Below, piece after piece: positions 28,586 through 64,000 of a DNA stretch of 64,000 nt. Position 1 is the first letter of the stretch, and each line of letters opens with the position of its first letter. Under the pieces are notes generated by a model. The model worked only from the letters and a program-made list of their open reading frames with translations, was not told the DNA's origin and searched no databases. A program made the position numbers and the translations under genes. The stretch covers positions 10,524,181-10,588,180 of the forward strand of contig JAZAYU010000006.1 in assembly GCA_038501625.1 (NCBI GenBank), in the 5' to 3' direction. Origin of the DNA: Corbicula japonica. Lineage: Eukaryota > Mollusca > Bivalvia > Venerida > Cyrenidae.

Positions 28586-28587
28586 CT

Positions 28588-29330: not shown

Positions 29331-29338
29331 GCTAAGTA

Positions 29339-37255: not shown

Positions 37256-37820
37256 TATACACTTAACAACTTTTCTAAGTTTACACCTTCGTACTGGGGC
37301 ATTACTGGCTTGATAATTAAGCTATTGCTCTAAGACTTTCAATAAAAATGCAATAAATACTAACTGATTTATTAAAAATATGGTGGAATATAACAGGCAT
37401 ATTGGAAAACTAAACAATAGGCGACTACATTTTATGCATTCAAACTGATTTGCTTAAAAGGTGGGTTGGACTATAAACAGTTATAAAACATTAAGATCAG
37501 AATGAAATGAATTTAATTTAACATAAATAGAAGAATATCATACTTCTAGGTTCCAAATGTTCATTATATGTACGCGTAAATCGTTTATTAAGTTAAACAT
37601 ACGATTTACTAAGTCATGTTGTGAATTTGTATTCTGTGGGTGTCAGTATTCTAAATGATTTTGAGCAGTCAGTTGTCTGTCATTTTGAATGAAGTTTTAC
37701 TAATAAATCAGTTAGTATTTATTGCATGGATTACTAAATGTTTTAGGGCAATAGTCCAAAAATCAAGCCAGTAATGCCCCAGTTCGAAGGTGTATACTTA
37801 GAAAAGTTGTTAAGTGTATA
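37256..37820. mobile_element. MITE with about 120-bp terminal inverted repeats
   Basis: TATACACTTAACAACTTTTC at the left end is matched by GAAAAGTTGTTAAGTGTATA at the right. Similarity continues for about 120 bases (GGGGCATTACTGGCTTGAT; GCAATAAATACTAACTG). If the termini are TACACTTAAC, both sides are flanked by TA, as for Tc1/mariner-type transposition. There is no coding capacity. Confidence 0.8.
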
Positions 37821-37909
37821 ACTGATGTCAGATAGACATAAATTAGCAAACACAATCAATTCCCAGTGTAACTATAATTAAATAAGAATCCCAGATAGAG
37901 GCAAAATCT

Positions 37910-38180
37910 TGTTTATTTTTGTTTGCAAGAAAACCCATTCTTTTGAAAACAAACAGTATTACAGCCTTGCATTGATTTTAAGGCTTATCTTGTCAAGAGG
38001 CACCTTTTCCAGGAAACTGACCACTGCAAACAACGCCAATTTAGAAATGTCGTTGACATAAAAATCACTGTTATAACAAGGATACTCAAGGAGATCAATG
38101 TTATACTCTATAGAGGCTATAAAATCTGCCGTTGCCATAGCGTCAAAATTCTCAACATTTGTTAACATATGGTTAATTAC
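37910..38180 (-). other. possible 3'-terminal exon of a nested minus-strand gene
   Basis: On the minus strand TTTTTATTCCTTCAG precedes a frame open from its first base (VINHMLTNVENFDAMATADF, continuing to KINARL). It stops at 37959-37961, with an AATAAA about 45 bases further at 37911-37916. The composition is protein-like, but no domain is recognised. The acceptor, open frame and poly(A) signal together fit a terminal exon. Coding-like minus-strand sequence at 40.5-40.86 kb could be upstream parts, though the phases do not join simply. Confidence 0.35.
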
Positions 38181-38394
38181 CTGAAGGAATAAAAATTACC
38201 ATTGTTGATGTAAATTATATGGTGAACTGTTTCAGTATTTTTTATGATATTAAATATATGCTTATGCATAAATGTACATCAAATAGGAACAAACCACAAA
38301 TTTTCTATAGCGATCCCTTTTTCTGAGGAGTTTGTTCATGATGTGACTTCAATAAAGAGGACGTGTTAAAAAAATTAAGTATAAAATGGACAAT

Positions 38395-38705
38395 CATTTT
38401 GATTACGATATGAATAAACTGGAACGGTATTCATCTGAAAATACCGCATGAAAGGTTCCATGTTCACCGCCATATGCATACCATCGTTTGGAATGGATCA
38501 AAATTGTACCGTATATTAGTGTAAATATTGAGTTGCGCTCAACCCGGGGCTAGGCGGCGTGGGCAGTTATATGCATTTCCATTACTTCCCATGAACAGGC
38601 TCAATCAAGCCGAGCCAGAAATATTTTCTAATTTGTCGTATTCGGTGTCTTTCGTGTCGTGTTCGGTGTCATTGAAAGTTCCCTTTTCATCTATATTTAT
38701 AAAAT
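38395..38705 (-). repeat. family B repeat, minus-strand copy
   Basis: GGAACGGTATTCATCTGAAA...GGTTCCATGTTCACCGCC, ATTGAGTTGCGCTCAACCCG, GGGGCTAGGCGGCG and TTGTCGTATTCGGTG: all landmarks in reverse order. A short extra TTTCGTGTCGTGTTCGGTGTC duplicates the end. Confidence 0.7.
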
Positions 38706-39365: not shown

Positions 39366-39889
39366 ACTCGTACCACTATATTGGCATATGAACATCAAAC
39401 ATTGATTAAAATGTCAGTTATTGGAGTTCATAGAGTGCATCTCTTTCATGTGTTAATCTATCAAGAATTTTCCCCTTTGCGTGATTGAGAAATTCTTCGA
39501 TTCATTGATCAAAGAAGATTATTAAAACTTGAATGACAGGCTAATGAACTATGTATAAAGTCTTGTATTCTGGTATTTCTTCGACGTAAATTATACATAG
39601 ATAAAACAAGGTCCTCATTAAATAATATTAATGGTTTATACATAGTTTCATTTATTTCTTTCCCAACAGGCATTGTCTTAGGTAACCAATTAATAAGATT
39701 TACGCTTACATTGAAAGTATCCTTCGCTTGATTTTTATGGAACTTTGACGAGCAAGCATTTTAATTAAATGGTGGAAATAACCCTGAAGACTGACGTCTT
39801 ATGACGTGTAGCTACAATCTTTGGTGTCTTTTTAATATAATGTACGGGGATGAGCAAAACAATATAAACGTATACGTTATCTTTCAACT

Positions 39890-40350
39890 TAAGTCGTGGC
39901 GATGCCAAATTCTTTAGGTCATGGTCATATTTTATGGAGTTATGCCCCTTTTAGTATTTGGATCTAGAAACAAACAAGTCCCTTGCCCCTTGGATTTTGA
40001 CAAGAAATCTTAACATTTGCTATAGATTTGCCTTTTTTTCATCAAATTTCAAAGTATATTGCTCATGACATCATGGTAATGAGGCTGCCAAATTATTTAC
40101 GTCAAGGTAACATATTATTGATTTATGCCCCTTTTCGAACTTGGATATTGGAAAGGAAAATTTAACATTGGTTATAACTTTCATTTCTTAATATTGTTCA
40201 TCAAATTTCAAATTATATTGTTTATGACAACATGGTAGTGATGATGCAAATTCTTTAGGCCTGGATCACATTTGATAGAGATATGCAACTTTTTATGATT
40301 TTTTATTCTGACAAAATACCAGAGGGCGACACAAGTTTTTACACCCATCT
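39890..40350. repeat. imperfect tandem repeat, three units of about 160-180 bp
   Basis: The motif order ATG[CG]CAAATTCTTTAGG, ATTTATGCCCCTTTT and CATCAAATTTCAAA[GT]TATATTG recurs at about 39900, 40085 and 40240. It is diverged and non-coding. Confidence 0.6.
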
Positions 40351-40478
40351 AGTTATTACTTAGAAACGTTTAAAGTTTTAATAAACTAAAACATATGATA
40401 ATTTTTTTAAAAGTAACAAATGGAACAAAATCCTGACCCTCTGGGAAGGTTATTCACATGCCTTATTAACTACAACAA

Positions 40479-40860
40479 TTATGCGTCTTTAAAAATAAAA
40501 CATATTGAAGCGTCAACATATCTTAATGATTTATGTTCAGTAAGAGTTGTTTGCTCTGAAGTGGAAAAATCAGTTGTGCCGAGATAAATTCCGATTTTCT
40601 CGCAGTATTTTGATAACATCACAGAAGATAAAGAATTCCACTCGTGACAAGCAATGTCATAAACTTTCTTGGTAACAATGTCAATACAATCATTTTGTTC
40701 CACTCACTTTTGTTTGCACGCCACTTAAGAATGAAAGTACAATGAGGAGGAAAGCAGAGAATCAGAGAATCAACAGTTGTTCTTTCTTTAAAAACCTTAA
40801 ATTCAACAGTATTGGTTATTTTCAAGATAGTTAATGGATAAAAATTTGTAGTTTTTTTTT
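40479..40860 (-). other. coding-like minus-strand segment, one frame change (candidate)
   Basis: Two minus-strand frames overlap. One, open through 40860-40700, reads YPLTILKITNTVEFKVFKE and later LILCFPPHCTFILKWRANK. The other, 40703-40479, reads VEQNDCIDIVTKKVYDIACH through YCEKIGIYLG to FKDA and then stops. A perfect donor GTGAGT lies exactly at the transition, so the first could be an exon. The alternative is a frameshifted element remnant. No family is recognised. Confidence 0.25.
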
Positions 40861-41265
40861 CTTTTTGAAACTTAAAACTAGTATTACTCTAAAATTTGTC
40901 TGCCACATTGTCTGTAATTTAAAAGTTACTGTTTGATAACATGCAGTTTTAAATAATTTAAATAATGAAGAAGTCCATTAAAGACTTTTGTAATCTCAGT
41001 AGTTCATTCAACGTCGCAAAATGAACAAAATCAACAAGTTATGCAAAATTCAGTTGAGTTCACAGCGTTATTTTTGCTTAGGTCAAATTTCAAGGAATTT
41101 TAGGCAATTTTGAAAGAATTTAATAATAAAATAATATAATACATAATGAAATGATCAATAAATATGGATACACGTGTGAGAAAGGAACTGAGATGCAGTG
41201 CTAGATCGTCTTATTTCACATGTATAACTTAAAACATAAATAAAACTCTGTTTTGTTAATTTCAG

Positions 41266-42152
41266 GGTTTGGAATGACCACCCCTCGCACCATAGGAGGC
41301 AAAATCTTGCTCATATTTTACGGATTCTTCGGATGTGCTGGGGCCATCTTGTTCTTCAACTTATTTTTGGAACGTATCATCACATTTTTAGCCTACATTC
41401 TCCGCGCTATCCATGATCGTAAGCTGAGACACAAGTTAGGTATCAACAATAATAATAAAGAGAACCGTCGTGATTCTGGCTCCATCGATGAGGACTCGCT
41501 AAACGAATGGAAACCATCTGTGTATTGGGTAATGCTGATTCTTCTGATAGGGGCGGTAACTGTGGCATGTTGTGCCTCAGCAATGTATTCCCCTGTTGAA
41601 GACTGGTCATACTTCGAAGCAATTTATTTTTGTTTTGTTGCATTTGCAACCATTGGTTTTGGGGACTATGTTGTGAGTCAGCGTGAAACCTATCCACATG
41701 TGGACTTATATCGGTTTGGAAATTTTATATTTATTGTGATGGGATGTTGTTGTATATATAGTTTATTTAATGTTACATCAATTGTGATCAAACAAGCATT
41801 GAACTGGATCATTAAAAAGCTTAACTGTGAATGCCGCCGCCATCGCCGGCCGCAACCAACGGGTCGTAGGAATGCAATAACTCCTGGACATCTTGGTCGG
41901 CGATCTAAAGCAAACACTGTAACCGTAGACGTGGAATGTGACAGTGACTCGGAAGGAGGTCGACGAAACTCGGGGGAAATGATTTCAATGCGTGATTTCC
42001 TGCAAGCCAATAAAATTTCATTGGCAATGATGCAAAAGCAATTATGGGAGACCGCTCAGCGGGCTCAGAGCAGCTCAGTTGGTAATGGATTTCAAGGTGG
42101 TGTCGGACCGCTCGCAATTTTAAATAAAAAACTTGGACAGGAAGATGTATGA
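41266..42152 (+). CDS. KCNK13-like: two-pore-domain K+ channel (THIK type), coding exon 2
   Basis: Encodes residues 113-407, entering in phase 1 after TTAATTTCAG and completing TIGFG (first filter, 111-115). FGMTTPRTIGGK and a second membrane segment with LIFYGFFGCAGAILFFNLFLER follow. Transmembrane segment 3 is at about 197-218, the second pore loop CFVAFATIGFGD has its filter at 241-245, and segment 4 is at about 262-286 (CCIYSLFNV). The cytosolic tail has RRDS (180-183, in the TM2-TM3 linker) and RRNS (345-348) as possible basic-directed kinase sites, and SGEMISMRDFLQANK, a stretch shared with THIK channels. The stop TGA is at 42150-42152. The length of 407 is close to the known size of KCNK13 (about 408). 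The product should be a leak K+ channel dimer of the plasma membrane. Confidence 0.95.
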
Positions 42153-42696
42153 TAACAGAGCATATTTTTATTACCCAATCAGCTGTGATGTTTATATTTA
42201 ACAAATTGCTCAAGCGCTTGACAACAGGAGTACCGAAACAGGATTGTCAATTTAACCATAATTTTATCTATTACAAACAGTGGTGCACTATATTTTCTCC
42301 TATAAGTATCTCTTGATTAGAATTGGTAACATATACTGAATAATTTCTCTCAGCTTATTTGTTAACTATACAGAACAAATACCCATAAATATTCCCTTAT
42401 CAACTATTATAGGGCGAGTTGTTTTCTGACTGTAGTGGTATGACAAATTACTAAATGTACACAAAAGGAGGGTTTCTCTAACAGATTAATTGTACCATCC
42501 ATATAAAAAGTCCAAACAATATATTTTGAATCTAGGTAGAGGTCTCTATTCAATGCGACGACTATGTCATGTTATATTATTTTTGAATCGTTGCTTTGCT
42601 ACAACAGATAGGCCTACACATGTATGTATAATTTTTACCTAAAATAATTTAAAATTAGTATTGTTTGACATTTTGTCCACACTTTATAAAACACAA

Positions 42697-42702
42697 AATA
42701 AA
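42697..42702 (+). terminator. candidate poly(A) signal of the channel gene
   Basis: AATAAA 545 bases after the stop codon is the first clear canonical hexamer on this strand downstream. The cleavage site is not determined. Confidence 0.4.
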
Positions 42703-42744
42703 ACACTCAACACATGAAAGAAAAAGAAAACAAAAAAAGTTTGA

Positions 42745-43270
42745 CAGATTTTAACATGACATTTACCATCATCACGTGACATTAATGATGACAGGTAAAA
42801 TAACATTTACGTTCATCACTTTACATTTATGATGACAGATAACATGACGTTTACCACCATCTCGTGGCATTTATATGTAAGTTAACATGACATTTACCTT
42901 CATCACGTGACATTTATGATGTCAGGTGACTTGACATTACCACCATCACGTGACATTTATGGTGAAAGGTAAAATGACATTTACCATCATCACGTGACCT
43001 TTATGATGACAGGTAACATGACATTAACCTTTATCACGTGACCTTTATAATGACAGGTAACATGACATTTTCCATCATCACGTGACATTTATGATGACAG
43101 GTAACATGGCATTAACCATTATAACGTGACATGTATTATGACAAGTAGCATGACATTTACCATTATCACTTGACATTCATAATGACAGGTAGACTGACAA
43201 TTATCCCCACCAAGTCACTTTATGATGGAAGGTTAAATGACATTAACCATCATCATGACACATTTTTGAT
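42745..43270. repeat. minisatellite, about 12 units of 44-45 bp with E-boxes
   Basis: Consensus unit: ACATGACATTTACCATCATC, then ACGTGACATTTATGATGACA, then GGTA. Six units keep the palindromic E-box TCACGTGA in full. Others have one change (TCACTTGA, TAACGTGA, TCTCGTGG). The array starts about 40 bases after the poly(A) hexamer. Confidence 0.9.
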
Positions 43271-43582
43271 GGCAGAGACCGGAATCAATTGATACTAATT
43301 TGTGATTTTTACTTTGTTTTTTTCCACTTAGCACCCGAAAATAAATCCTGTAAAACGAAATGATGATACTTTTGATCTACAGTCGTGAAACTTAGAAATT
43401 TTGAAGTCTAGATATGGCTGTTATCAATGGGAGATTGTATAGTGTAGATCCACATAATCTGATTTAAAATAAATTATTAATATGATTAAATTTGAATATT
43501 ATAATTCTGACTAAGATGCAAACAGTTTTACCATCCAGATCTGACGGCACGAATGTGTTTGCTGATCTGAATCAACACTGGG

Positions 43583-43732
43583 CTGAAGGTTATAAAGCAG
43601 AGATTGGAAACCAGTCTCAAATCTCAAGCATCTGATTGGCTGAAATGGCGACTGGTCGCCATTTCAGCCAACAGATGCTTGAGATTTGAGACTGGTTTCC
43701 ATGCTCAGTTTTATAACCTTGGGCACAGGTCG
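43583..43732. repeat. family F foldback inside family C sequence
   Basis: GGGCTGAAGGTTATAAAGCAGAG at left, TCAGTTTTATAACCTTGGGC at right. It is flanked by GCTGATCTGAATCAACACT and GTCGCACATTTATGAAGTAA, which match the two halves of family C. Confidence 0.8.
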
Positions 43733-46700
43733 CACATTTATGAAGTAAAAGGTTAAATGTCGATATGACTTATACCAGCCCAGACCAATAACGAAACAAA
43801 TACGCAATATTATTACACTTTCATATGCTTTCGCTCCACAATCAAAACTAAAACAGATAAATCAACTATACTCTTATGTTAAAAATTTAGCTTTTTGCTA
43901 GAACTTTTCTCCCGTCAGTATTGCATTGTTCAAAAAATCAATCAAAAAGTATTTTGGTGTCGTGAGCAGCTCTTGGATATTACTTTCGTTTGGCTGCTGT
44001 TCACCATTTGAATAATTAAGCGGTATTTATGCGCATTTACAAAACGGCATGGGGGCCAAAGATCTGATAAAGCGTGATCAAACATGAGGGGGTGGGAAAT
44101 AATATCAGATTCTGTAAATAAACTTACACATACATTTTATTCCAACTCGTAGAGCGAACAATTACTATAGTGAAGTGCTATATTTATACTTTTTATTGCA
44201 GATTTTTCAAAAGTTAGAATTTTGTGCGCTCTATAAGTGACGTCGCGCTGACATTACTGTATTTTAAAATTACATTACATTTGCCGAGTGGTCAAAGAAG
44301 ACGAAAACAGAACATATTTCCTTTTTTGTAAAAAATCTCTACATTGAACACCGCTGATGAACAATGGATATCGCTCTGTTTGGTTAGACCATATTTACCT
44401 TAACATTTGGTTGACCCTCGATATGTGAATGAAGATAATGCCAACGATGGGCGATAGCTTTATAAGTCGAACTTACCCCATTGGTCAATGGAGATGTTTT
44501 TGCATACTACACATTTTCTGTGTTTACAAGAAAACTCTCATTTTATCAAAATCACTAGCATTGTTAATACCACAGGTGTGTTCATTTGAGGTTAACTGTT
44601 ATACTGTTATATTGTGACATTTAAGACCACAATTCTAATTGTAGAACAATAGTTTAATTAGTTTTAAAAGAAGAGGCGTCTCATCAAACAACAACTTAAC
44701 TGATGTTTCTCAAATTGAGAAATAAAACCTCTGCCCATTTTAATATAAAAATCACCACCCACAGATATCACTGTCATATCAGTGATACTATCACAGCTTT
44801 CAGATAAAAATAAAACACATTTTCTTCACACTACTTTTACCGAAACTAGTTTTTTCGCCAATTTTTTTTAACCCTTATACACAAGTAAACAGTCATCGAA
44901 CAAAACGTTTACTGTGCTGGCAATGTATTATCATTGATTTAGTTTTTTCCAAGCAACGATTCTCTATTTCCATCATTCAATGCAATGTAGTATAATTATG
45001 TACATATTCATAGAATATTTCGTTGGTAATTCATTTAATGATTTAACTTCAATGAGTCCTTGTTGCTGAACTGTATTTCACAAAATGTTTATTATTTACT
45101 CTTTATATAAATCTTTATATGTGTTCACAATATGCGTAAATATTTATTAACTAGAACTAGAAACTTAGATATACACAAAATTGCATTCATAATAAAACAT
45201 TTCTCTTTAAGTGTTAATGGGTGAGTGATCCGCCTTTTACTTTGATTTTATTTTTCTTAGATTGAAATCGCCTCCGCAATATGTACGAAATTATTGAAAT
45301 CAAACTACTCAATCAAACTGGATATATATACAGCTGTAAGAATTTCTTAATTAACTCACAACAAAAAGACAGTCTGAGAGGAATAAATCGAGACTTAGTT
45401 GATATGGTAACGCAAGTCAATTCTTTTTGTATCCTAAACATGTGTTCATATATGCGCTGTTATAAAGTAGTTCTTAATACAATGACTAATTTGCAAAGAT
45501 CTGTGTTAAATATCAGTCAGTAAAAGCGATATTTTAATGAATATAAACATCTTTTTTCTTTTTTGTTTTAATGATTTATTGATATATCACACCGGCAAAG
45601 CCAGTGTACTTAAATACTGAAAAAAAAACGGGTAGGCGAAAAGGGGTATACTTATATAAGCACCACAAACGCATATTAATATTGATTTCAGGCTTATATT
45701 AACGTTCGTTGTTTTTTATGAAATTTAAAACAAGTGATAACCTTTACATTGAATAAAATTGCATAGAAGAATATGAAAAGGGACCTTGTTTTTTACGTGT
45801 TTGTATTGAATGCGAACGCTCGCTCGTCTCTGTTATTTTGTTGTTTTTTTACGTGCAATAAGTATAAGAAGTTATTTTTGAAACGCCTACAGATGTCGTT
45901 ATTTATTATATCTCTTTCAACCTTGAATTGTTTTATGTTGCTTTATAAAATTATCAATTTGAAATTAAAGAGTGATAATTTTGTCAATTGTTATGAATGA
46001 CTTCCCTTTAGGTAGATTTTACGTCTTTTATGGTAATAAGGCTTTTTAAGAATGTTTATTGTAACTTGTTTTAATCAAAAAGACTCATATATAGCTTTTG
46101 AATTAAAAAATAAAATTTATATAGTGATCAACTTTTAATATATTTATACATCTTTTTTATAAGTTCACACTAAAATACATGTGTGTGCAGCAACAACTTA
46201 ACTCACCTCGATAGACTTTACAAGCAAATCTTATAGGTTACCGGTTGAGTGTTGTAGTAAGTCTTAACTTTTTGACAAGGTTTTGATGTTTAGCACACAT
46301 GTATAAAGAACTATTTATTTTGTTATTTGACAGATTAGTTTGACACTTTTCTATATTTTAAGTAATTTTTATTTGCAGTCTTAGTATTTTTTTTTATTTC
46401 GTATTGATAAGTAATTATGGGTATTCAAGGATCTGCAAATCTTTATAAAATATTATCTAATAATATATGTTGATTTTGATGTTATTCATTCTATTTTGCA
46501 AGTATATATGGTACCTTGTACAAGACAATCCCGTTGTTACTAATAATTGCTTTGATATGAACACTATATTATGTATATATATTTATACTTAAATGTATCA
46601 AAAATAAAATGTCACTGATTGATATCGCATTTGGTCTTTAATACATATACACAAAAACCGGCTACTACTAAAAGTATTAACTGACCTAAAAAAGTCTAAG

Positions 46701-46960
46701 AAATCAACTCGACTCTGTAAAATTATTCAACCCATATTAAAGAAATTAAAAGCAGACCCATTTCTAATATTTCGAATCTTTTTGCTTACTAATACAGACG
46801 TAGTGACGTTACTGTTTTGATTTTAAATATGGCTTACTTGTGTTATATTTTATTTAAGTTGATTATCTTACTAGAGTTTTTTCTTTACCTGAGCAATTTC
46901 AATGTGTAATTAAGAATAATAGAATAATATGGGTGGTATAAACATCTCAGCCAGTACAAC
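43733..46960. other. AT-rich intergenic region, no gene recognised
   Basis: Plus-strand open frames at 45281-45523 (ATG start, 80 residues, beginning MYEIIEIKLLNQTGYIYSCK) and 45773-46000 have AT-driven codon use and no motifs. A small hairpin ATCACTG-TCATAT-CAGTGAT lies near 44769. Nothing else is supported. Confidence 0.4.
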
Positions 46961-48328: not shown

Positions 48329-48337
48329 TCTTTCATG
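48329..48337 (+). repeat. target-site duplication, left (9 bp)
   Basis: TCTTTCATG immediately precedes the AGATGTGTG terminus of the foldback element and is identical to 54357-54365. Confidence 0.85.
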
Positions 48338-48565
48338 AGATGTGTGAAATTAGCGGCCTGGCGGCCTAGCGGCCTGGCGCCCTAGCGGCCTGGCGGCCTA
48401 GCGGCCTGGCGGCGTGAAGTTAGCGGCCTGGCGGCGTGAAGTTAGCGGCCTGGCGGCCTAGCGGCCTGGCGGCGTGAAGTTAGCGGCCTGGCGGCCTAGC
48501 GGCCTGGCGGCGTGAAGTTAGCGGCCTGGAGGCGTGAAGTTAGCGGCCTGGCGGCCTAGCGGCCT
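48338..48565 (+). repeat. left outer block: GCGGCCT[AG] octamer repeats
   Basis: Octamers GCGGCCTA and GCGGCCTG alternate, interrupted by GGCGTGAAGTTA about every 35-50 bases. One CpG per octamer makes this a sharp GC- and CpG-rich island. Confidence 0.9.
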
Positions 48566-51090
48566 AAACTTAATATTTATCATAATTTATGTTTATCTTT
48601 AAAACGGCTTGAAATCGATTTTTACAGCATGCAATGTACATTTCAGGGATGATTAAGTGAAATATCAACAAAAACTAGCTTTGATTTTTATCAAGTTTTC
48701 GAAGCCTGGCGGCCTAGCGGCGTAGCGGCCTGGCGGCCTAACGGCCTGGCGGCCTAACGGCCTGGCGGCCTGGCGGCCTAGCGGCCTGGCGGCCTAAACT
48801 TAAAATTTATCATAATTTATGTTTATCTTAAAAATGTATTGAAATCGATTTTTACGGCATGCAATGTACATTTCAGGGATGATTAAGTGAAATATCAACA
48901 AAAACTAGCTTTGTTTTTTTTTTTAAGTTTTCGAAGCCTGGCGGCCTAGCGGCCTGGCGGCCTAGTGGCCCGGCGGCCTAGCGGCCTGGCGGCCTAGCGG
49001 CCTAAACTTTAAATTTATCATAATATATGTTTATCTTAAAATGTTTTGAAATCGATTTTTACAGCATGCAATGTACATTTCAGGGCTGATTAAGTGAAAT
49101 ATCAACAAAAACTAGCTTTGATTTTTTTTAAGTTTTCGAAGCCTGGCGGCCTAGCGGCCTGGCGGCCTGGCGGCCTAAACTTAAAATTTATCATAATTTA
49201 TGTTTATCTTAAAAATGTTTTGAAATCGATTTTTACAGCATGCAATGTACATTTCAGGGCTGATTAAGTGAAATATCAACAAAAACTAGCTTTGATTTTT
49301 TTTAAGTTTTCGAAGCCTGGCGGCCTAGCGGCCTGGCAGCCTAGCGGCCTGACGGCCTAGCGGCCTGGCGGCCTGGCGGCCTAAACTTAAAATTTATCAT
49401 AATTTATGTTTATCTTAAAAATGTTTTGAAATCGATTTTTACAGCATGCAATGTACATTTCAGGGCTGATTAAGTGAAATATCAACAAAAACTATCTTTG
49501 ATTTTTTTAAGTTTTCGAAGCCTGGCGGCCTAGCGGCCTGGCGGCCTGGCGGCCTAAACTTAAAATTTATCATAATTTATGTTTATCTTAAAAATGTCTT
49601 GAAATCGATTTTTACGGCATGCAATGTACATTTCAGGGATGATTAAGTGAAATATCAACAAAAACTAGCTTTGTTTTTTTTTAAGTTTTCGAAGCCTGGC
49701 GGCCTAGCGGCCTGGCGGCCTAGCGGCCTGGCGGCCTAAACTTAAAATTTATCATAATTTATGTTTATCTTAAAATGTTTTGAAATCGATTTTTACAGCA
49801 TGCAATGTACATTTCAGGGCTGATTAAGTGAAATATCAACAAAAACTAGCTTTGATTTTTTTAAAGTTTTCGAAGCCTGACGGCCTAGCGGTCTGGCGGC
49901 CTGGCGGCCTAAACTTAAAATTTATCAAAATTTATGTTTATCTTAAAAATGTTTTGAAATTGTTTTTTACAGCTTGCAATGTACATTTCAGGGCTGATTA
50001 AGTGAAATATCAACCAAAACTAGCTTTGATTTTTTTTAAGTTTTCGAAGCCTGGCGGCCTAGCGGCCTGGCAGCCTAGCGGCCTGGCGGCCTTAACTTAA
50101 AAATTATCATAATTTATGTTTATCTTAAAAATGTTTTGAAATCGATTTTTACAGCATGCAATGTACATTTCAGGGCTGATTAAGTGAAATATCAACAAAA
50201 ACTAGCTTTGATTTTTTTTAAGTTTTCGAAGCCTGGCGGCCTAACGGCCTGGCGGCCTGGCGGCCTAAACTTAAAATTTATCATAATTTTTGTTTATCTT
50301 TAAAATGTCTTGAAATCGATTTTTACCGCATGCAATGTACATTTCAGGGATGATTAAGTAAAATATCAACAACAACTAGCTTTGATTTTTTTTAAGTTTT
50401 CGAAACCTGGCGGCCTAGCGGCCTGGCGGCCTAAACTTAATATTTATCATAATTTATGTTTGTGTTTGAAACGGCTTGAAATCGATTTTAACAGCATGCA
50501 ATGTACATTTCAGGGATGATTAAGTAAAATATCAACAAAAACTAGCTTTGAATTTTTTTAAGTTTTCGAAGCCTGGCGGCCTAGCGGCCTGGCGGCCTGG
50601 CGGCCTAGCGGCCTAAACTTAATATTTATCATAATTTATGTTTATCTGTAAAACGGCTTGAAATCGATTTTTACAGCATGCAATGTGCATTTCAGGGATG
50701 ATTAAGTAAAATATCAACAAAAACTAGCTTTGAATTTTTTTAAGTTTTCGAATCCTGGCGGCCTAGCGGCCTAAACTTAATATTTATCATAATATATGTT
50801 TATCTTTAAACCGGCTTGAAATCGATTTTTACAGCATTCAATGTACATTTCAGGGATGATTAAGTAAAATATCAACAAAAACTAGCTTTGATTTTTTTTT
50901 AAGTTTTCGAAGCCTGGCGGCCTAGCGGCCTAGCGGTCTAAATTTAATATTTATCATAATTTATGTTTATCTTTAAAACGGCTTGAAATCGATTTTTACA
51001 GCATGCAATGTACATTTCAGGGATTATTAAGTAAATTATCAACAAAAACTAGCTTTGAATTTTTTTTAAGTTTTCGAAGCCTGGCGGCCT
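48566..51090 (+). repeat. left arm: 14 composite units of about 160-230 bp
   Basis: Each unit has an AT-rich body of about 150 bp (AAACTTAAAATTTATCATAA, CAGCATGCAATGTACATTTC, CAACAAAAACTAGCTTTG, TTAAGTTTTCGAAGCCTGGC) followed by a variable number of GCGGCCT octamers. Unit starts are near 48566, 48796, 49003, 49177, 49384, 49557, 49738, 49911, 50094, 50268, 50433, 50616, 50773 and 50940. Octamer number falls along the arm toward the centre. Confidence 0.92.
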
Positions 51091-52800
51091 AGCAATAACG
51101 AGATCTTAATATTGTTCTGCAGGCCTGAGGAAATTCAACTAAAGCGATGCAAATAAATAAAAAAAAAACGTGGGGCTTGAAACCGAGTCTGGTCTCGATT
51201 TCTGATTTTTCTTTTGTTTCAAATAGGTACAGATCACTATGGTAGGCATACTTATTTGCGAGGGATGAAATTCTGGTTTCAACCATGTATGAATTGTTTG
51301 GCCAGATAAGAAGACTCTACAGATCCGAACCTCCGTAATTGCGATTATATGCAGAATATGGATTTGTCTTATTGTTAAACGTTACGTCGTCCTAAATCTC
51401 CACCATTTTATGGACAGTTTTTATGTTTTATATACCATTTTAATCGCAAGAACGAGATCTTAAAATTATTCAGCATGCCGGAAGAGATCGCACCAAAGCA
51501 ATCCAGGTTAAAGCGAAAGAAGGAAGGTTTTAATCCGAGGTTGGTCTCGGTTTCTGATATATTTTTTTCTTTAAAATAGGGACATATCGTAAAGATAAAC
51601 ATACATATTTTCGAAGGTTTAAATTCCGGTTCCAACCATGAATGGATTGTTTGGCTAGTTTAGAAGACAGTCCAGATCCGAGCCTCCGAAATTGCGATTA
51701 TATGCAGAAAATGGCATTTTTTCTCTGGGTAAACATTACGTCGTCCTAAATCTCCGCCATTTCATGAACAGTTGTCATGTTTTATATACCATTTTACTCG
51801 CAGTAAAGAAATCTGAAAATTATTCTACAGGACTGAAGAGACCGCACTTATTCAAACCAGGTTAAAGCGAAAGAAGTAGGGCTCGAATCCGAGGCTGGTC
51901 TCGGTTTCTGATATTTATTTCATGGAAAGAGTGACATATCGTAATGGTAAACATACACGTTTGTGAGGGTTTAAATTCTGGTTCCAACCATATATAGATT
52001 GTTTGTACAGCTTAGAAGACAGTACAAATTCGTGCCTCAGTAATTGCGATTATGTGCAGAATATGGATTTGTTCTATTGTTAAACGTAACGTCCTCCTAA
52101 ATCTCCACCATTTTATGAACAGTTTTTTTGTTTTATATACCATTTTAATCGCCAGAACGAGATCTTAAAATTATTCAGCATGCCGGAAGAGATCGCACCA
52201 AAGCAATCCAGGTTAAAGCGAAAGAAGGAGGGCTTTAATCCGAGATTGGTCTCGGTTACTGGTTTCTTTTGTCTTGAAAATTTGGACATATCGTAAAGGC
52301 AAACATACATATTTTCGAAGGTTTAAATTCCGGTTCCAACCATGTATAGATTGTTTGGCCAGCTTTGAAGACTGTACAGATCCGAGCCTCCGTAATTCCG
52401 GGTATATGCAGAATATGGCATTCTTTGTATAGGTAAACATTACGTCGTCCTAAATCTCCGCCAGTTGATGAACAGTTTTCATGTTTTATATACCATTTTA
52501 CTCGCAACAAAAGAGATCTGAAAATTATTCTACATACCAGAAGAGACCGCAACAAAGAAATCCAGGTTAAAGCGAAAGACGTAAGGCACCAATCCGAGGC
52601 TGGTCTCGGTTTCGGATATTTATTTCATTAAAAGAGGGACATATCTTAAATGTAAACATATATGTTTGCGAGGGTTTAAATTCTGATTCCATGTATAGAT
52701 TGTTTGACAAGCTTATAAGACTGTACAGATCCGAGCCTCCGTAATTGCGGTTATATGCAGAATATGGATTTGTTCTATCGTCAAACATTACGCAGAATGC
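51091..52800. repeat. central array: five units of about 353 bp in alternating A-B-A-B-A order
   Basis: Units begin near 51091, 51444, 51799, 52150 and 52504, at [AC]GAGATCT or AAATCTGAAAATTATTC. Units 2 and 4 share GAACGAGATCTTAAAATTATTC and ATGGCATT. Units 3 and 5 share AGATCTGAAAATTATTCTAC-type starts and ATGGATTTGTTCTAT, with unit 1 matching them at its end. Minus-strand open frames of 65-99 residues recur in the units but are broken differently in each, so I treat them as by-products of the repeat. Confidence 0.8.
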
Positions 52801-52859
52801 ACTGCTGGACATTCAAAACATGCATAAAATCGAATTTCAAAGAATCAAGAAGGCCGCAG

Positions 52860-53880
52860 GGCTTCTAAAACTTAAAAAAAGCAAAGCTAGTTTTTGTTGA
52901 TATTTTGCTTATTCACCCCTGAAATGTGCACTACATGCTGAAAAATCGATTCCAAGCCGTTTTAAAGATAAACATAAATTATGATAAATATTAAGTTTAG
53001 GCCGCTAGGCCGCTAGGCCGCTAGGCCGCCAGGCCGCTAGGTCGCTAGGCCGCCATGCTTCGAAAACTTAAAAAAAATCAAAGCTAGCTTTTGTTGATAT
53101 TTTACTTAATCATCCCTGAAATGTACATTGCATGCTGTAAAAATCGATTTCAAGCCGTTTTAAAAATAAACATAAATTATGATAAATATTAAGTTTAGGC
53201 CGCTAGGCCGCCAGGCTTCGAAAACTTAAAAAAAATCAAAGCTAGTTTTTGTTGATATTTTACTTAATCATCCCTGAAATGTACATTGCATGCTGTAAAA
53301 ATCGATTTCAAGCCGGTTTAAAGATAAACATAAATTATGATAAATATAAAGTTTAGGCCGCTAGGCCGCCAGGCTTCGAAAACTTAAAAAAAATTCCAAG
53401 CTAGTTTTTGTTGATATTTAACTTAATCATCCCTGAAATGTACATTGCATGCTGTAAAAATCGATTTTAAGCCGTTTTACAGATAAACATAAATTATGAT
53501 AAATATTAAGTTTAGGCCGCTAGGCCGCCAGGCCGCTAGGCCGTCAGGCTTCGAAAACTTAAAAAAAATTCAAAGCTAGTTTTTGTTGATATTTTACTTA
53601 ATCATCCCTGAAATGTACATTGCATGCTGTAAAAATCGATTTCAAGCCGTTTTAAAGATAAACATAAATTATGATAAATATTAAGTTTAGGCCGCCAGGC
53701 CGCCAGGCTTCGAAAACTTAAAAAAAATTCAAAGCTAGTTTTTGTTGATATTTTACTTAATCATCCCTGAAATGTACATTGCATGCTGTAAAAATCGATT
53801 TCAAGCCGTTTTAAAGATAAACATAAATTATGATAAATATTAAGTTTAGGCCGCTAGGCCGCCAGGCTTCGAAAAGTTAA
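52860..53880 (-). repeat. right arm: six inverted composite units
   Basis: The same body as the left arm in reverse (GGCTTCGAAAACTTAAAAAA, CAAAGCTAGTTTTTGTTGAT, GAAATGTACATTGCATGCTG, TTATGATAAATATTAAGTTT). Each unit is followed by one to five AGGCCGC octamers. Unit boundaries are near 52997, 53198, 53353, 53513, 53688 and 53847. Confidence 0.92.
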
Positions 53881-54107
53881 ACAATCAAACTTAGTTCTTT
53901 ATCATCAACTGAAATGTAATTTACAAAGAGTACATGGAAGCGAATGTACAAATAGATTCCGAGTCGTCTCTGCAGATAAGCTAGAACTTTGATTTAAAAA
54001 ATAAAAGCTAAATCATGTCGATAACTTTCTTATACACCCCTGCAATTTACATTATATCTGTAAAAGTAGATTTCAATCATTTTTTAAGATCAACGTTAAT
54101 TGCGATA
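53881..54107. repeat. degenerate right-arm segment
   Basis: Recognisable but diverged body motifs: ATCAACTGAAATGTAATTTAC, GTCGATAACTTTCTTATACA and TGCAATTTACATTATATCTG. Octamers are absent. Confidence 0.6.
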
Positions 54108-54356
54108 AATTCAGCCATCTTCACGCCGCTAGGCCTCTAACTTCACGCCGCCAGGCCGCTAACTTCACGCCGCCAGGCCGCTAGGCCGCCAGGCCGCTAA
54201 CATCACGACCCCAGGCCGCTAGGCCGCCAGGCCGATAACTTCACGCCGCCAGGCCGCTAGGCCGCCAGGCCACTAACTTCACGCCGCTAGGCCGCCAGGC
54301 CGCTAACTTCACGCCGCCAGGCCGCTAGGCCGCCAGGCCGCTAACTTCACACATCT
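54108..54356 (-). repeat. right outer block: inverted octamer repeats
   Basis: AGGCCGC octamers separated by TAACTTCACGCCGCC. It is the mirror of 48338-48565 and ends in TTCACACATCT. Confidence 0.9.
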
Positions 54357-54365
54357 TCTTTCATG
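54357..54365 (+). repeat. target-site duplication, right (9 bp)
   Basis: TCTTTCATG, identical to 48329-48337. Confidence 0.85.
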
Positions 54366-55327: not shown

Positions 55328-55585
55328 GGGACCACCCAGAAAACACAGCCTACTCACGAAGCAAACATTGAGAGAGGAAATGAGAGCATGGGTTTATAAA
55401 ATGATCAATTTAAACACAACAAAAGTAAGGAAAAGGAAAACCTGAGGGTTACCGCATTAGAAAGGTCAGTGGCAAAACCATTTTTGTCACGGAGGGTTTA
55501 AACCAGGTTCTAGTGTGCGCCAACCTCACACTTGCCCTACCAGGTTCTCATATGAAGCAGCATGTACAAGCTGCCCAGGTGAAGT
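55328..55585 (+). repeat. right part of the split family A repeat
   Basis: CCACCCAGAAAACACAGCCT resumes family A at the point where 47845 broke off. It continues with GAGAGAGGAAATGAGAGCATG, the GGTCAGTGGCAAAACC hairpin and GCGCCAACCTCACACTTGCC. Confidence 0.7.
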
Positions 55586-57056
55586 GTATAAAAATGTATT
55601 TAATTTTCTTTTATGCACACATACATTATTGAATAAAAGTCGGACAAACTCCGTCTAAGCATTAATTACTAAATAAACTACATGTATAAGCTCAGAGTAC
55701 ATGTGTCGGAGCGACTTGTGACAAGTGATATTAAACTAATCAAAATAGAGATGTAATGTGTTTAATAATGTGTATTTATTTAAATCATGGATTATTCTTG
55801 TTCTATGGAACTGCATTAATTAAACAATTTAAAACATATTGTTGCAATTTCGATGCCAACATTTCGTGGCAGAGTTGGATGTTATATCATGTGATCCGTC
55901 CTTAGACAGTTATTGATGTATTCACTCGGTCAATTGAATTATTACGAGAATAACTTTAAATTAAAACTTAAATATAACATGCTTTTAATGTGAATTAAGC
56001 TATGATAAACTATTTTTACCCGTAATTTTAACACGTGAAGGCTGGATCACATGAGATTTCCTATCAATAATATTGAGGCGAACCCTCATACATAGAACGT
56101 TCTACACAACAATTCATTCTCGACATGTCCTGAATTAGATTTTTCTCAAAAATCAAAGAACGTTATGTCAAAAGCAATTAATTATTCGTCACAATATGTG
56201 GAATAAAAGGATCTGACCTTTCTCAATAGCTTTACAGATATGGTTTCTCTGATAAATACCTGTCATTTATATTTGCGTGTCCAGGGTAGCTACTTGAGCA
56301 GCTATAGACTCTAAAAAAGGATGTCCAAGATATATATGGAATATTATAACATTATGCAATCATAGGTTTAATTTTTTCGACTTGGGTATGTTAACAATAT
56401 CTCGCGAGAACGAAGGTCGAGCGTGTTGTGGTTTAAATACGCAACGATAAATAATAAGACCTTCAGAATTCATATTGTCATAATGTTCCTTTTATTATAT
56501 ACCCTTCTTGCTCAAAACGAATTTACATGTCAATGTGACAAACCCTGCATCCAATGATTAATAGAATAACAAGGTCCGGGATTCAAGTTCGATAAGTTTA
56601 TTAGACGAAATATGTACTTCCAGAAACAGGCTCTGAAATTACACAATAATAACAGATTTTTCAGAATAACAATCATTACAATCAGAATTCGCATAGTTAC
56701 ATCAATATCAATACAAAAATAATAATCATCAATAATTTATATATTAACATATGATAAAATTCATCATTAAAGTAGCATAGCATAGTGGATCTGGTGCGCA
56801 TGCGTCGGAAGAATAACAGCTGTTTCTAGCAGCTCTTCATAAAATCTAGGAAAACTAGGATACCTGACTAATATTGTAGATTTTACTGTAAAATCCAACA
56901 TATTATTAAATTTGAACATATGTCTCATTCATCTATTTTGAAACTTTTTTCGTTTATCACCTAAAACAGGTAAATTTCTTACCATCCCAACCCCCCACCC
57001 ACTGACGTTGATTTTGACAATACAACTTCCGGTGAAGGAAATAAACACAGGGAGGC
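55586..57056. other. AT-rich region upstream of the LINE
   Basis: No gene is recognised. The 5' leader of the LINE probably lies in the last few hundred bases, but its start cannot be placed. Confidence 0.4.
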
Positions 57057-57647
57057 ATGCTTACAGGTTTGTTTTGTTCGTTCTTGCTTCTGGCAAGCAT
57101 TATTACCATTAGTGGTATAACAAAGAGGCAAAGTAACGCCAAAATAATGCAGTGCCCACGACCTAGCGTATACCCAAATAAGTTTTCGCCCACCAATGCA
57201 CATTCGTGCGGAACAATTGCTGTAGTATTGAGGGCACGATTTAGACTATACAAACAACCAATTTTTCCAAGCAAAAATAAGACCCTCTCATATTTGGCTA
57301 TTCTATTACTGTCAATTTCATGTGACGTTGAATCAAACCCGGGCCCAGACTTCCCCTGTGGTGGCTGTGGACTGGAGGTGCTTGATTCGGACCCGGCAGT
57401 GGAGTGTGACAGCTGCGAAGTGTGGTTCCATCTCCACTGCCAGGGTCTCGATCCGGCTTGGTACCAACAACTAGTAGACCATAACCAATCATTTGCCTGG
57501 ACTTGTACACATTGTGACAACCTGAACCACTCAACTTTGTCAAGCATACTTTCAGTATCATCTCACAACAGTTACTCCTCCTTGCCAGAAGACAACACAC
57601 AAGTAAACAATGCAAGTAGCAGAGTCAGACCACCAAATGACTGCTAA
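57057..57647 (+). pseudogene. LINE N-terminal region: hydrophobic leader, 2A-like peptide, PHD finger
   Basis: From the ATG at 57057: residues 4-20 are hydrophobic (GLFCSFLLLASIITISGI), like a signal or membrane segment. YLAILLLSISCDVESNPGP follows, with DVESNPGP (residues 90-97, 57324-57347) matching the ribosome-skipping 2A consensus D-x-E-x-N-P-G-P. Residues 101-155 have the PHD zinc-finger pattern: CGGC, CDSC, WFHLHC and WTCTHC. 2A motifs in APE-type LINEs of marine invertebrates are known. In active relatives 2A separates an N-terminal peptide from the rest during translation. This segment has an intact frame, but the stop at 57645 disconnects it from the endonuclease. Confidence 0.85.
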
Positions 57648-58620
57648 AACACATTGGTACCAAATTTTAAAATATTATGCATTAACTGCCAATCAATTGT
57701 AAATAAAAGACATGAATTTCAAATCTTGATTAAAAACCATAACCCTGACATAATCACAGCAACAGAGACTTGGCTAAAAAATGAACATTTTACCAGCGAA
57801 ATTTTCCCACCATCCCTTGGATACACAACCTTTCGTAGGGATAGGCAAAAGGGCAAAGGCGCGGGGTTCTTATTTTGGTAAAAAACAACTTACTCCCTTC
57901 CGAACAACCTAAACTTAACACAGAATGTGAAATTATTTGGATTAAAATAGAAATTAAAGGCACTAAACCCTTCTACATAGCATCATATTATAAACCAAGT
58001 GAAACAGACATCAAAAGTACTCTTGAATTTGAAAAATCTTTGGAACTAGCACGCAATCTTAAAGGCACAAAACTTATTTTTGGCGACTTCAATTTTCCTA
58101 AATTATCTTGGGATCAAGATCATAATCCCTCTCTGAAACCAGGATGCTGTTCCAATACCGCCTATGACAAGTTCTAGATAACCATAATTTGACCCAAATG
58201 GTAACTGACAACACAAGAAACAATAACATTCTTGACCTTTTCCTAATCTCAAATCCCACCCTTGTTAAAACAGTAGAAATAACTGCAGGCATATCTGACC
58301 ATGATGCAATATCTGCAACAGTTAATGCTAGACCAATTATCTTAAAGCAAAAACCAAGAACATGCCATCTTTACAAAAAAGCAAACTGGCCAGATTTTAA
58401 AAAATATATGCAGTCTACCAGTGAAAATTTTTTACAAAACTCAAGCTCATTAACAGTAGAGGACCTTTGGAATACATTTAAAAACTCACTGGAGACCGGA
58501 ATTTCAAAATACATACCAACAAAAAGAATTGGCTCAAAAAAGTCTCTGCCCTGGATAAATAAAGAAATAAAAAAGCTAATACATAAAAGAGGCCGCCTCT
58601 ATAAAAAAAGCTAAGAAAAA
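57648..58620 (+). pseudogene. LINE apurinic-type endonuclease, frameshifted
   Basis: NFKILCINCQSIVNKRHEF (start of the fold), TATETWL, later KLIFGDFNFP and GISDHDAI are the catalytic signatures of APE-type LINE endonucleases. Two frameshifts (about 57880 and 58180) break it. The region after it (to about 58615) reads PWINKEIKKLIHKRGRLYKK, the usual link to the RT. Confidence 0.85.
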
Positions 58621-60495
58621 TAATCACAACCATGAAATGATGATGAAATTCAAAAAAACTAAACTTGCCATTAAAAATAAAATTAAAAGTTCTTATAACT
58701 CCTACCTAGAAAATATTCTTGATATCTCAGATAAAGATAACACACAAAGCAAATTTTCTACCAAAAAACTATATTCACTTATTAAAAACTCAAAACAGGA
58801 CTCACAAAATGTGTCCCCCCTTAAAGATCAAATAACAGGATCCTTTAAAACAAAGAACTCTGATAAAGCCAATATTCTTAACCGACAATTCCAATCAGTT
58901 TTCTCTGGAAATTCTCCACTATCCTTGAAACAAACATGCCTAGAAAAGCTCAGATTCCTTAATCCATCCCAACACTGTAATTATCCACAGATGCCAAAAA
59001 TCATTATCAGCAAAGCAGGTGTAATTAAGTTATTGGCCAACCTGAAGGCAGATAAAGCTGCTGGCCCAGATCTGATCAAACCAATTGTTCTGAAAGAGCT
59101 GAGGCTTGACATTGCCGACATAAACAGAAATCCCTTGAATCCGGAACTATTCCCAGGGATTGGACCAAGGCCAACGTGTGCCCAATATATAAAAAGGGTG
59201 ACACCAGTGACCCTGCAAACTACCGTCCTATTTCTCTCACCTGCATTCTCTGTAAAACTCTTGAACACATTGTAGCATCCCACCTATCCTCTCACTTGAC
59301 TACCCATAATATACTCTATGATCTCCAGCACGGCTTTCGTGAAAGACGCTCTTGTGAAACACAACTCATTGAACTAACTGACTATCTAACCAATAACATC
59401 GCTTCAGGCAAACAAACTGACCTAATTTTACTTGACTTTAGTAAAGCTTTCGATAAGGTAAACCATCTAAAACTTCTCTATATCCTTCAAGAATATGGTG
59501 TGTCTACTCAAATACTCAAATGGACTCGCTCTTTCCTCATAGGCAGAAGCCAAAAAGTCATACTAGACGGTGAATGCTCAACAGAAGTACCGGTAACCTC
59601 TGGAGTACCCCAGGGATCTGTCCTTGGTCCCCTATGCTTTCTCGTCTATATAAACCAACTTCCGTCTTCTGTTTCTAAATCCCAAGTCCGGCTATTTGCT
59701 GATGACACTGCCATCTACCTCACCATCAACTCCTTGGCAGACTCACTAACGCTACAACAAGATCTTGACAAGATGCAGGCATGGGAGAAGGCGTGGGACA
59801 TGGAATTTAACCCTCAAAATGTCAAGTCTTACACATTACTAAAAATAAACATGTCATTAAAAACAAATATTATCTCCACGGTCAAGCACTTGAATCTGTT
59901 ACACATGCAAAATACCTAGGGTTAGATCTTTCTTCTGAGCTTAATTTCAACACACACATAGCAAGAATTACAGCTAATGCTAATAAATCCCTAGGCTTTA
60001 TCAAAAGAAACATAACAACAAACAACCAAAAAGTCAAAGAACTGGCATACAAGACCTTGGTCCGACCCCGGGTAGAGTACGCATCACTGTCTGGAATCCA
60101 TACACCAAGACAAACATCCACAAAGTGGAAATGGTCCAGAGGCGAGCAATAAGATGGGTCAAACAAGACTACTCTCCTCTTTCCAGTGTCACGGCTATGC
60201 AGGGGGAGCTGGGCTGGAGGTCCTTAGAACATCGAAGGCTTGATGCTAGACTTATAATGTTTTATAAAATATACCATAACATCGTAGCAATAAACCTCCC
60301 TTCTTACATACAAAGACCGAACAAACCAGGCATATGCACCCCCTCTGTTTTAGACAGATTCAGGTCACGTCAGATTATCACAAGTTCTTATTTTTTCCTC
60401 ATAGTATCACTCTTTGGAATAGACTTCCCGTTAATATTGTAACCCTGCCTGATCTTGAGCATTTCAAGCAGGCAGTGGCTGGGATCCAATACTAG
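58621..60495 (+). pseudogene. LINE reverse transcriptase and C-terminal domain, frameshifted
   Basis: Motifs in order: KADKAAGPDLI (58.97-59.08 kb), PIYKKGDTSDPANYRPISL, QHGFRERRSCETQL, LILLDFSKAFDKVNH (motif A), TSGVPQGSVLGPLCF (motif B), LFADDTAIYL (motif C, near 59695), AKYLGLDL and NLPSYIQRP, ending QAVAGIQY then TAG at 60493-60495. Frame changes occur near 59170, 59870 and 60120. The catalytic FADD is intact in sequence, but the frame is not. Confidence 0.88.
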
Positions 60496-60700
60496 TCGGG
60501 TACTCTTTGTTTTTATCTCTTTTACTTTTAATCTCCATTTAATCTAGCACTCACTAACATTTTAACACTTGTCTTGGCATCCAAGATCACAATTCTTGAC
60601 TTTATTCTTTCACAACCTTACTAACACTTCCGACGTGCACCAAGTCCTGCCATTAACACTCGAAAGAGGAGTCGGCAGTATTCAGAGATAGAAAAACAGA

Positions 60701-61975: not shown

Positions 61976-62883
61976 ATGGCGGAAAATTGTGTGATTTGGT
62001 GCATTTCAGGAGATATTTTGACCTGGTAAGTAGATTTATATCAATGTTATCGTAATATAAATACACCTACCCGGAGGCCAGATGTGTAAGCTCCACTCGG
62101 TTTTTTAACTTATGTTTCTAGAGGCCTAAACAAAAAAGTTATTGAATGTATAAACTGCAAGATTGTTTGTTTACAAAGTGAAAATAGAAAATTTTGTGAC
62201 TTAAAACTGTGTTTTTAGTAAAAATATAACGTTTTTGAACCTATTTTAGCGAAATTATTATCGAGTTTTGCATATATTTCTTCACGGCGGCTTTTGCACT
62301 TTACATGGGTACTTTATGGCCAATTTTTTTTATGTTCAAACACCTTTAATGTTTGGCGTGGAAGTGGTAAGCATGTTTTTGTTCGGTGCAGAATCTGAAT
62401 AACACACTCGTATGCGTTTATATAAGTGAAAGTAAGACATGAGCTGATAACAAATGTTAATAATCAAAATAAAAGCCGATTTGTTACCCAAATACGAAAA
62501 TATCGCTTATTTGTTATGCAAAATTATCTACCACATATTATACTTGTATATTATTCTACCTCTTGATAAGTAAACTCCCGCCTTGTGACCACCTCAATTT
62601 CAAGACCATCCCGCTGTTACGGGCACCTTTTGAAAGAACAGATATTTCCTATATCATTCAATGGTCGCTCGCATCGATTACACGACCACCCCGCTATTCC
62701 ATATTCCATAATGCGACCACTTTCTACAGTCTTATATACCCAGTTGCCACTTATATTGACACCTTAATTACGACCACAAGGCATTTGCTCGCCGAATACA
62801 CAGTCAAGTGCCATTGTCTTTTGGCGAGAAGCGAGTTTACAGTTTACAGTCTTCAAGTATCTGACGTACTTTATTCAAGTTAG

Positions 62884-63575: not shown

Positions 63576-64000
63576 ATGGGTAGGTATATTCTAATTGATA
63601 TTATAAATACATATGAAGTTCTTGTTTCGGTAAAGCCATTTTCGGGAAAAGATCAAAGGAACATCCGTGTGTTTGGGTAAAATATTGGCTTTTGGTTTGA
63701 TTTTTAACATTTGTCAGCTAGTGTCTTACTTTCACTTATATAAACGCGTATTAGTGTTATTCAGATTCTGCACCGAACAAAAACATGCTTACCACTTCCA
63801 CGCCAAACATCTAAGGTGTTTGAACATAAAAAAAATTGACCATAAAGTACCCATGTAAAGTGCAAAAGCCGCCGTGAAGAAATATATGCAAAAACTCGAT
63901 AATAATTTCGCTAAAATAGGTCCAAGAACGTTATATTTTGACTAAAAACACAGTTTTAAGTCACAAAATTTTCTATTTTCACTTTGTAAACAAACAATCT

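Follow-up and report, generated by a model that had tools for sequence, protein, structure and literature searches.

Drosophila FB/NOF elements combine Foldback architecture and internal tandem repeats with a 9-bp target-site duplication (TSD). TSDs measure 7 bp in Galileo and 8–9 bp in Merlin, which has GG-type ends. According to the descriptions used here, Tetris of Drosophila virilis has no conserved open reading frame (ORF), carries ~220-bp repeats in its terminal inverted repeats (TIRs) and shows 8–9 bp TSDs at complete copies; its TIRs comprise outer flanking, tandem-repeat and inner domains, its middle domain is variable, and repeat number varies between allelic copies (PMC4079207). Muta1 of Aedes aegypti is an active MULE with an 8–9 bp TSD and over 300 putative non-autonomous derivatives, classed by its authors as a type 2 Foldback (PMC5225508). 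Tm1 of Meloidogyne, a Mutator/Phantom Foldback, has composite TIRs, with a short end motif and, after it, short tandem repeats in varying number, and its TSD is most commonly 9 bp (PMC3169594). In Galileo, a member of the P superfamily, the TIRs are long and internally repetitive, and sites in their repeats bind the THAP domain of the transposase (PMC3688188), while Rehavkus is described with a 9-bp TSD, TIRs of 26–400 bp and a transposase with a PHD finger (PMC6446971). MULEs occur in all mollusc genomes analysed in PMC10294476, and no Foldback element is described from a bivalve in the titles and abstract openings of the matching literature, which by title consists of the Drosophila Tetris paper, satellite-DNA papers and reviews.

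Within a 64-kb stretch of bivalve DNA (the window), we find apparently mobile DNA with no recognisable gene, whose two ends are long mirror-image repeat arrays. The element spans 6019 bp (48338–54356), starts with AGATGTGTGAA and finishes with TTCACACATCT, and its ends are alike at 41 of the 42 outermost bases. Copies of TCTTTCATG directly adjoin AGATGTGTGAA (from 48338) and TTCACACATCT (to 54356), and neither terminal 11-mer occurs again in the window. The original prediction of a ~6-kb Foldback-like element with a perfect 9-bp TSD is borne out; its interval, 48329–54365, includes the TSD, but the element proper is the shorter span. The features are laid out as follows.

48329–48337, no strand: left TSD TCTTTCATG (exact 9-bp match to 54357–54365; chance control)
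48338–51093, plus strand: left arm of 2756 bp, made up of the terminal motif, an octamer zone and 14 AT-rich bodies with octamer linkers
48338–48564, plus strand: left terminal zone, 227 bp; AGATGTGTGAA end, octamers and six GTGAAGTTAGCGG-type motifs
48565–51078, plus strand: bodies L01–L14 (138–141 bp) and 13 octamer linkers (19–91 bp, all 3 mod 8), by profile search
51095–52793, plus strand: middle domain, 4.8 copies of a ~352-bp direct repeat, 71.9–89.5% alike over common columns
52794–52862, minus strand: 69-bp junction from middle to right arm, belonging to neither repeat (sequence reading and alignments)
52863–53848, minus strand: intact inverted bodies R01–R06, numbered outer to inner (137–140 bp), with octamer linkers of 3 mod 8, by profile search
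53868–54114, minus strand: decayed bodies D02 and D01, which no octamer run separates (nhmmer, identity matrix)
54115–54356, minus strand: right terminal zone, 242 bp; seven GTGAAGTTAGCGG-type motifs, ending in TTCACACATCT
54357–54365, no strand: right TSD TCTTTCATG (exact 9-bp match to 48329–48337)

The arms are genuinely inverted (up to 312 nt at 96%) and unequal: the left holds 14 bodies in 2756 bp, and the right, inverted, six intact and two decayed bodies in 1495 bp. Their repeat unit is a ~139-bp AT-rich body (137–141 bp in single copies), joined by GCGGCCTG/GCGGCCTA octamers. Arms built of tandem subrepeats with GC-rich octamers had been predicted and were seen; an AT-rich body had been anticipated as well, but at 150 bp rather than ~139 bp, and the octamers are GCGGCCTG and GCGGCCTA. 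A profile built from 10 bodies found by regular expression, a method that missed many copies, recovered 20 intact bodies in the window at E ≤ 4e-38 (L01–L14 at 3e-42 to 4.4e-39), plus the two decayed ones, and outside the element returned nothing better than E 1.1. D02 is 53–58% and D01 60–63% identical to the intact bodies (nhmmer E 0.0017 and 2.3e-13, respectively). The linkers from body to body measure 8n+3 bp in 19 of 19 cases, a count to which the terminal zones, both inner edges and the D01/D02 junction do not contribute. On either side of the bodies stands GCC, or a variant differing from it at one base, an arrangement that would give this spacing. A further, rather unlikely reading is that the body arose when a small insertion entered an array of octamers: near the ends of the body consensus lies an 8-bp inverted repeat, equalled in 105 of 20,000 Markov-1 simulations in a test chosen post hoc, and among five single bodies printed this repeat reaches at least 8 bp in three and only 6 bp in two.

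GC content is 0.71 at 48338–48566, against 0.34 left of the element, and 0.69 at 54119–54356. The end motif GTGAAGTTAGCGG is repeated six times in the left outer zone (spacings 70, 22, 38, 38 and 22) and seven times in the right (38, 30, 38, 38, 38 and 22). Three octamer-zone pieces and one body all folded as single strands no better than their shuffles (z 0.77, 0.30, 0.95 and −0.09), which leaves hairpins of these small repeats unsupported as a signal or as a cause of slippage.

A tree of the bodies contains a branch (83/85) that separates nine bodies, L02–L10, from R01–R06, L01 and L11–L14. None of its 16 inner branches is starred, 13 are open and the bootstrap had not settled; left and right labels change five times on the tree, compared with a shuffle mean of 5.4, and as few changes occur in 254 of 500 shuffles. 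The tree is therefore weak, its arm labels are not clustered beyond shuffles, and no firm sequence of events follows from it.

The centre of the element, 4.8 direct copies of the ~352-bp repeat, is unrelated to the arm bodies. This separate tandem repeat is a feature beyond the original prediction, and elsewhere in the window it has only two 20-bp matches (E 0.33), the one long match listed (51089–52091) being that of the middle to itself. No transposase was detected in the element, either in the ORF list or by Pfam above cut-off in 11 of the 12 stop-to-stop frames of at least 60 aa, the scan excluding the frame at 52090–52296 (plus strand). Weak matches to Clr2_transil (E 0.029) and Sheath_initiator (E 0.2) fell below the cut-offs and were taken as chance. 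A 122-aa frame of the middle repeat drew eight candidate relatives, none at E ≤ 0.1, and Rfam and tRNA searches returned 0 matches each. Exact-pattern scans of contig collections likewise returned 0 matches, which says little about a mollusc because the collections are viral and prokaryotic. A KCNK12/13-type gene points to a heterodont bivalve as the probable host.

The locus combines terminal inverted ends, a 9-bp flanking duplication, long repetitive inverted arms and a repetitive middle in which no gene is recognisable. Long TIRs of tandem subrepeats and a middle that is non-coding (11 of 12 frames Pfam-scanned) agree with the structural definition of a Foldback element, and the perfect 9-bp TSD with the ~8–11 bp, often 9, of the Mutator superfamily. 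Compared by description, the element is like Drosophila FB/NOF in its Foldback architecture and 9-bp TSD. The resemblance had been foreseen and extends to published Foldback and MULE elements, but kinship to Drosophila FB does not follow from it, since this structure is reported to have evolved more than once among transposon lineages (PMC3169594, PMC4079207). Tetris, also compared by description, is similar in its lack of a conserved ORF, its long repetitive TIRs with a middle domain and its TSD length, and differs in its host and in having ~220-bp repeats rather than a 139-bp body with octamer linkers (PMC4079207). Muta1 shares the TSD length and a 10-bp end motif followed by short subterminal tandem repeats (9 × 12 bp), but its TIR is just 145 bp, its end motif is imperfectly palindromic, a transposase is present, and AT-rich bodies go unmentioned in the description used (PMC5225508). 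Tm1, alike in its composite ends and TSD, differs in its asymmetric 7-bp end motifs, its 13–15 bp repeats and its known Phantom-like transposase; one described copy is 1080 bp (PMC3169594).

We consider it likely that the element is a non-autonomous DNA transposon of the Foldback type. A transposase acting in trans, most likely of the Mutator superfamily, would move it, and slippage and unequal exchange would have reshaped its arms. TSD length by itself does not fix the superfamily, as the 9 bp of Rehavkus and 8–9 bp of Merlin illustrate. The same working with a transposase of another group (P/Galileo-like, Merlin or Rehavkus) is a rather unlikely alternative, to which the lack of a detected transposase in the 11 scanned frames lends some room. 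The 7-bp TSD of Galileo and the GG-type ends that accompany the 8–9 bp TSDs of Merlin argue against it. Galileo does place Foldback-like TIRs around its P-type transposase (PMC3688188, PMC3169594), and the TSD fits that described for Rehavkus (PMC6446971); taken whole, the inverted arms exceed 26–400 bp, and no transposase is seen in the scanned frames.

The significance of the ends and TSD was assessed on perfect inverted pairs with starts 200–12,000 bp apart, taking exact TSD lengths and using 40 Markov-1 simulated windows as the control. With 11-bp ends, the window holds 13,275 such pairs, and only this element has an exact 9-bp flanking duplication; the simulations yield 0 in 21,850 pairs. 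With 9-bp ends, a 9-bp duplication accompanies 4 of 24,358 pairs in the window versus 1 of 276,654 in the simulations, the four being this element, one short MITE-like element and two chance-looking pairs (5113–14491 and 11071–19282) whose ends are unlike beyond the seed. The MITE-like element, with 9-bp ends and a 9-bp TSD, lies at 24629–24863. Two further pairs with 9-bp ends and 7-bp TSDs (22353–26628 and 39884–46862) are likewise attributed to chance, their ends being unlike beyond the seed. At a fixed boundary, base composition gives a 9-bp match a chance of 8.8e-6. Other duplication lengths with 11-bp ends occur in 211 pairs (6 bp), 75 (8 bp) and 0 (7 bp). Among the matches listed, the 6- and 8-bp pairs belong to a palindrome family, to an inverted dispersed repeat (30075–38542) or to the element's own bodies, the last of which inverted copies in register would explain.

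These controls weigh against a palindromic block of satellite DNA that arose through inverted duplication and amplification, with no transposition and a 9-bp flank by chance. The mostly tandem-repeat interior, the unequal arms and the single copy seen within the window would suit such a block, but the exact ends and direct repeat are without counterpart in the simulated pairs, the ~1-kb flanks share only an inverted 32-bp piece (~0.45 kb left and 0.93 kb right of the ends), and inverted duplication would not itself produce a direct flanking repeat; we regard this origin as very improbable. A non-autonomous element of the Helentron/HINE type, with a satellite array at its centre as in oysters, is scarcely credible: short satDNA-like tandem arrays can occur in HINEs, which are dispersed through the genome of Crassostrea gigas, but Helitrons reportedly leave no TSD, and the Helentron/HINE description includes a 3′ palindrome and, for HINEs, subterminal inverted repeats of 11–12 bp (PMC7492417), so this reading is contradicted by the 9-bp TSD and terminal inverted repeats, as it is by kilobase-long arms.

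For a Foldback transposon mobilised in trans, the transposase would come from another genomic locus and would most likely be a MULE/Phantom-like member of the Mutator superfamily. It would recognise AGATGTGTGAA at the end together with the GTGAAGTTAGCGG sites repeated over the outermost ~230–240 bp of each arm, excise the element and open the target with a 9-bp stagger, whose repair would leave TCTTTCATG on both sides. The arms would lengthen or shorten by slippage and unequal exchange, 8 bp at a time within octamer runs and by entire body-plus-linker units. These processes would explain both the 14 versus six plus two bodies and the left-arm-only subtype L02–L10, flanked by bodies of a subtype shared with the right arm.

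The element probably represents a new Foldback family of an already known kind, as the original prediction had suggested. Four octamer strings tried had no match in the literature text searched. More doubtfully, the arm array of this new family could form a three-level (octamer, body-plus-linker, arm), adjustable, putative transposase-binding platform, in which GTGAAGTTAGCGG sites and octamer runs would set transposition strength and arm length would be quantised in 8-bp and roughly 160–230-bp steps.

In flies, Foldback-type elements have been implicated in chromosomal inversions and in seeding satellite DNA, according to the accounts used (PMC4079207, PMC3688188). The kind of element reported here is itself already familiar; in a bivalve, a Foldback whose TSD is clean and whose arm repeats are countable and quantised would make it possible to test arm growth, and likewise whether such arms feed bivalve satellite DNA.

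The putative Foldback-type transposon and its target-site duplication (TSD) occupy the following positions.

48338-54356: element, 6019 bp
48329-48337 and 54357-54365: 9-bp flanking duplication, TCTTTCATG

The outermost 42 bases of the two element ends agree at 41 positions; farther in, the ends fall out of register, because the outer repeats are arranged differently in the two arms. Both 11-bp ends occur only once in the window. Our scan took every perfect inverted pair whose starts lie 200-12,000 bp from each other and looked for an exact flanking duplication. Among 13,275 inverted pairs of 11 bp in the window, only that at 48338-54356 carries an exact 9-bp flanking duplication, and none does so among 21,850 such pairs in 40 Markov-1 control windows. 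The original prediction of an approximately 6-kb element with a perfect 9-bp TSD is thus borne out as real rather than a chance pairing. When the ends are shortened to 9 bp, 4 of 24,358 pairs in the window have a 9-bp flanking duplication, versus 1 of 276,654 in the simulations.

Each arm begins with an octamer-rich outer zone (227 bp on the left, 242 bp on the right; GC 71% and 69% over approximately these stretches) in which the end motif GTGAAGTTAGCGG, allowing up to two substitutions, occurs six times on the left and seven on the right, with spacings of 22 or 38 bp in 9 of 11 cases. Inward of these zones, a whole-window profile search located AT-rich bodies of ~139 bp, 14 in the left arm and, in the right, 6 that are intact and 2 that have decayed, with no match better than E 1.1 in the window outside the element. 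The 20 intact bodies are 84-100% identical to one another and are joined by linkers of GCGGCCTG and GCGGCCTA octamers with scattered changes, so that both arms have the predicted architecture of tandem subrepeats with GC-rich octamers. Linkers range from 19 to 91 bp, and all 19 have a length of 3 modulo 8; linker length has therefore changed by whole octamers. In the middle of the element (51095-52793), a ~352-bp repeat is present in 4.8 direct copies that share 71.9-89.5% of bases in their common columns; we found no relatives of this repeat in the window and no protein relatives in a search with its 122-aa frame.

In the body tree, one branch (83/85) parts left-arm bodies L02-L10 from L01, L11-L14 and all six intact right-arm bodies, but the tree as a whole is weak, since none of its 16 inner branches is starred and 13 are open. 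Arm labels change 5 times on this tree versus 5.4 when shuffled, and 254 of 500 shuffles are as low, indicating no extra clustering by arm. The simplest account is one body type common to both arms, with a variant amplified within the left arm. Changes common to L02 and L06, and to L03 and L07, in the alignment look like a four-unit block duplication in the left arm. More speculatively, an older array may have left the decayed bodies of the outer right arm behind as its remnants.

The window also contains a channel gene and several other repeats.

29336-29683 and 41244-42149: two-pore potassium channel, two coding stretches
about 57045-60500: non-LTR retrotransposon, several separate open frames
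18592-18738, 20454-20631, 28586-28740, 32465-32619, 34041-34202 and 43578-43731: palindrome family
near 18828-18913: palindrome family, partial copy
3260-3668, 7687-8133, 15785-16189, 16483-16704 and 55333-55583: dispersed repeat family, about 72-86% alike

Both channel stretches contain Ion_trans_2 above cut-off, and the best match of 41244-42149 among solved chains is KCNK13 (E 7.4e-102). Among the best 120 of 1031 matches, the closest named relatives of its product are from Mactra antiquata (86%) and Mya arenaria (81%), followed by Mizuhopecten yessoensis (76%) and Dreissena polymorpha (75%), which makes a heterodont bivalve the most probable host. A 44-bp tandem repeat of 12 copies (42752-43275) lies ~0.6 kb downstream of this KCNK12/13-type stretch. 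The retrotransposon has a reverse transcriptase stretch above the Pfam cut-off, and PHD-like finger and endonuclease stretches below it. The near-perfect ~140-bp palindromes, hairpin MITE-like, number at least six, and a second long inverted repeat (62160-62495 versus 63669-64000; about 335 bp, 93% identical) extends to the window end. The dispersed family, one copy of which adjoins a (GA)n run, is perhaps HINE-like, at a guess.

The inverted ends, together with the 9-bp TSD, point to an element inserted by cut and paste into a target opened with a 9-bp stagger. Yeast reinsertion of Muta1, a mosquito MULE, gave 8-9 bp TSDs (PMC5225508). No transposase was found within the element, which would therefore have moved in trans. 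Its repeated subterminal motifs are plausible transposase binding sites; in Galileo (P superfamily), the transposase THAP domain is bound by sites inside the TIR repeats, and the same paper calls such binding untested for Foldback and Phantom elements (PMC3688188). From TSD length and architecture (cf. PMC4079207), Mutator is the likeliest superfamily to mobilise the element. Every mollusc genome covered by PMC10294476 contains MULEs, and two molluscan MULE groups are tabulated in PMC6446971. Elsewhere in the window, a 235-bp MITE-like element (24629-24863) has 10-bp ends GGAAGTGTCT/AGACACTTCC, a perfect 9-bp TSD ATAGAAATA and GC-rich CCGGACCC-type repeats close to its right end. It suggests, and does not show, that 9-bp-duplicating enzymes have acted in this genome, because its ends differ from those of the 48338-54356 element.

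Three known systems map well on the element: Tetris of Drosophila virilis, with flanking, tandem and middle domains, an 8-9 bp TSD and no ORF (PMC4079207), the ends of Muta1 (PMC5225508) and the architecture of Tm1 from Meloidogyne (PMC3169594). None of four octamer strings was found in the open literature searched, and no bivalve Foldback element appeared by title or abstract start in open literature on mollusc or bivalve Foldbacks and long-TIR MULEs. These results speak for a family that is absent from the open papers searched, and for no more than that. Classed by structure and not assigned to the Drosophila FB/NOF family, the element is filed as Foldback-type, probably mobilised by Mutator.
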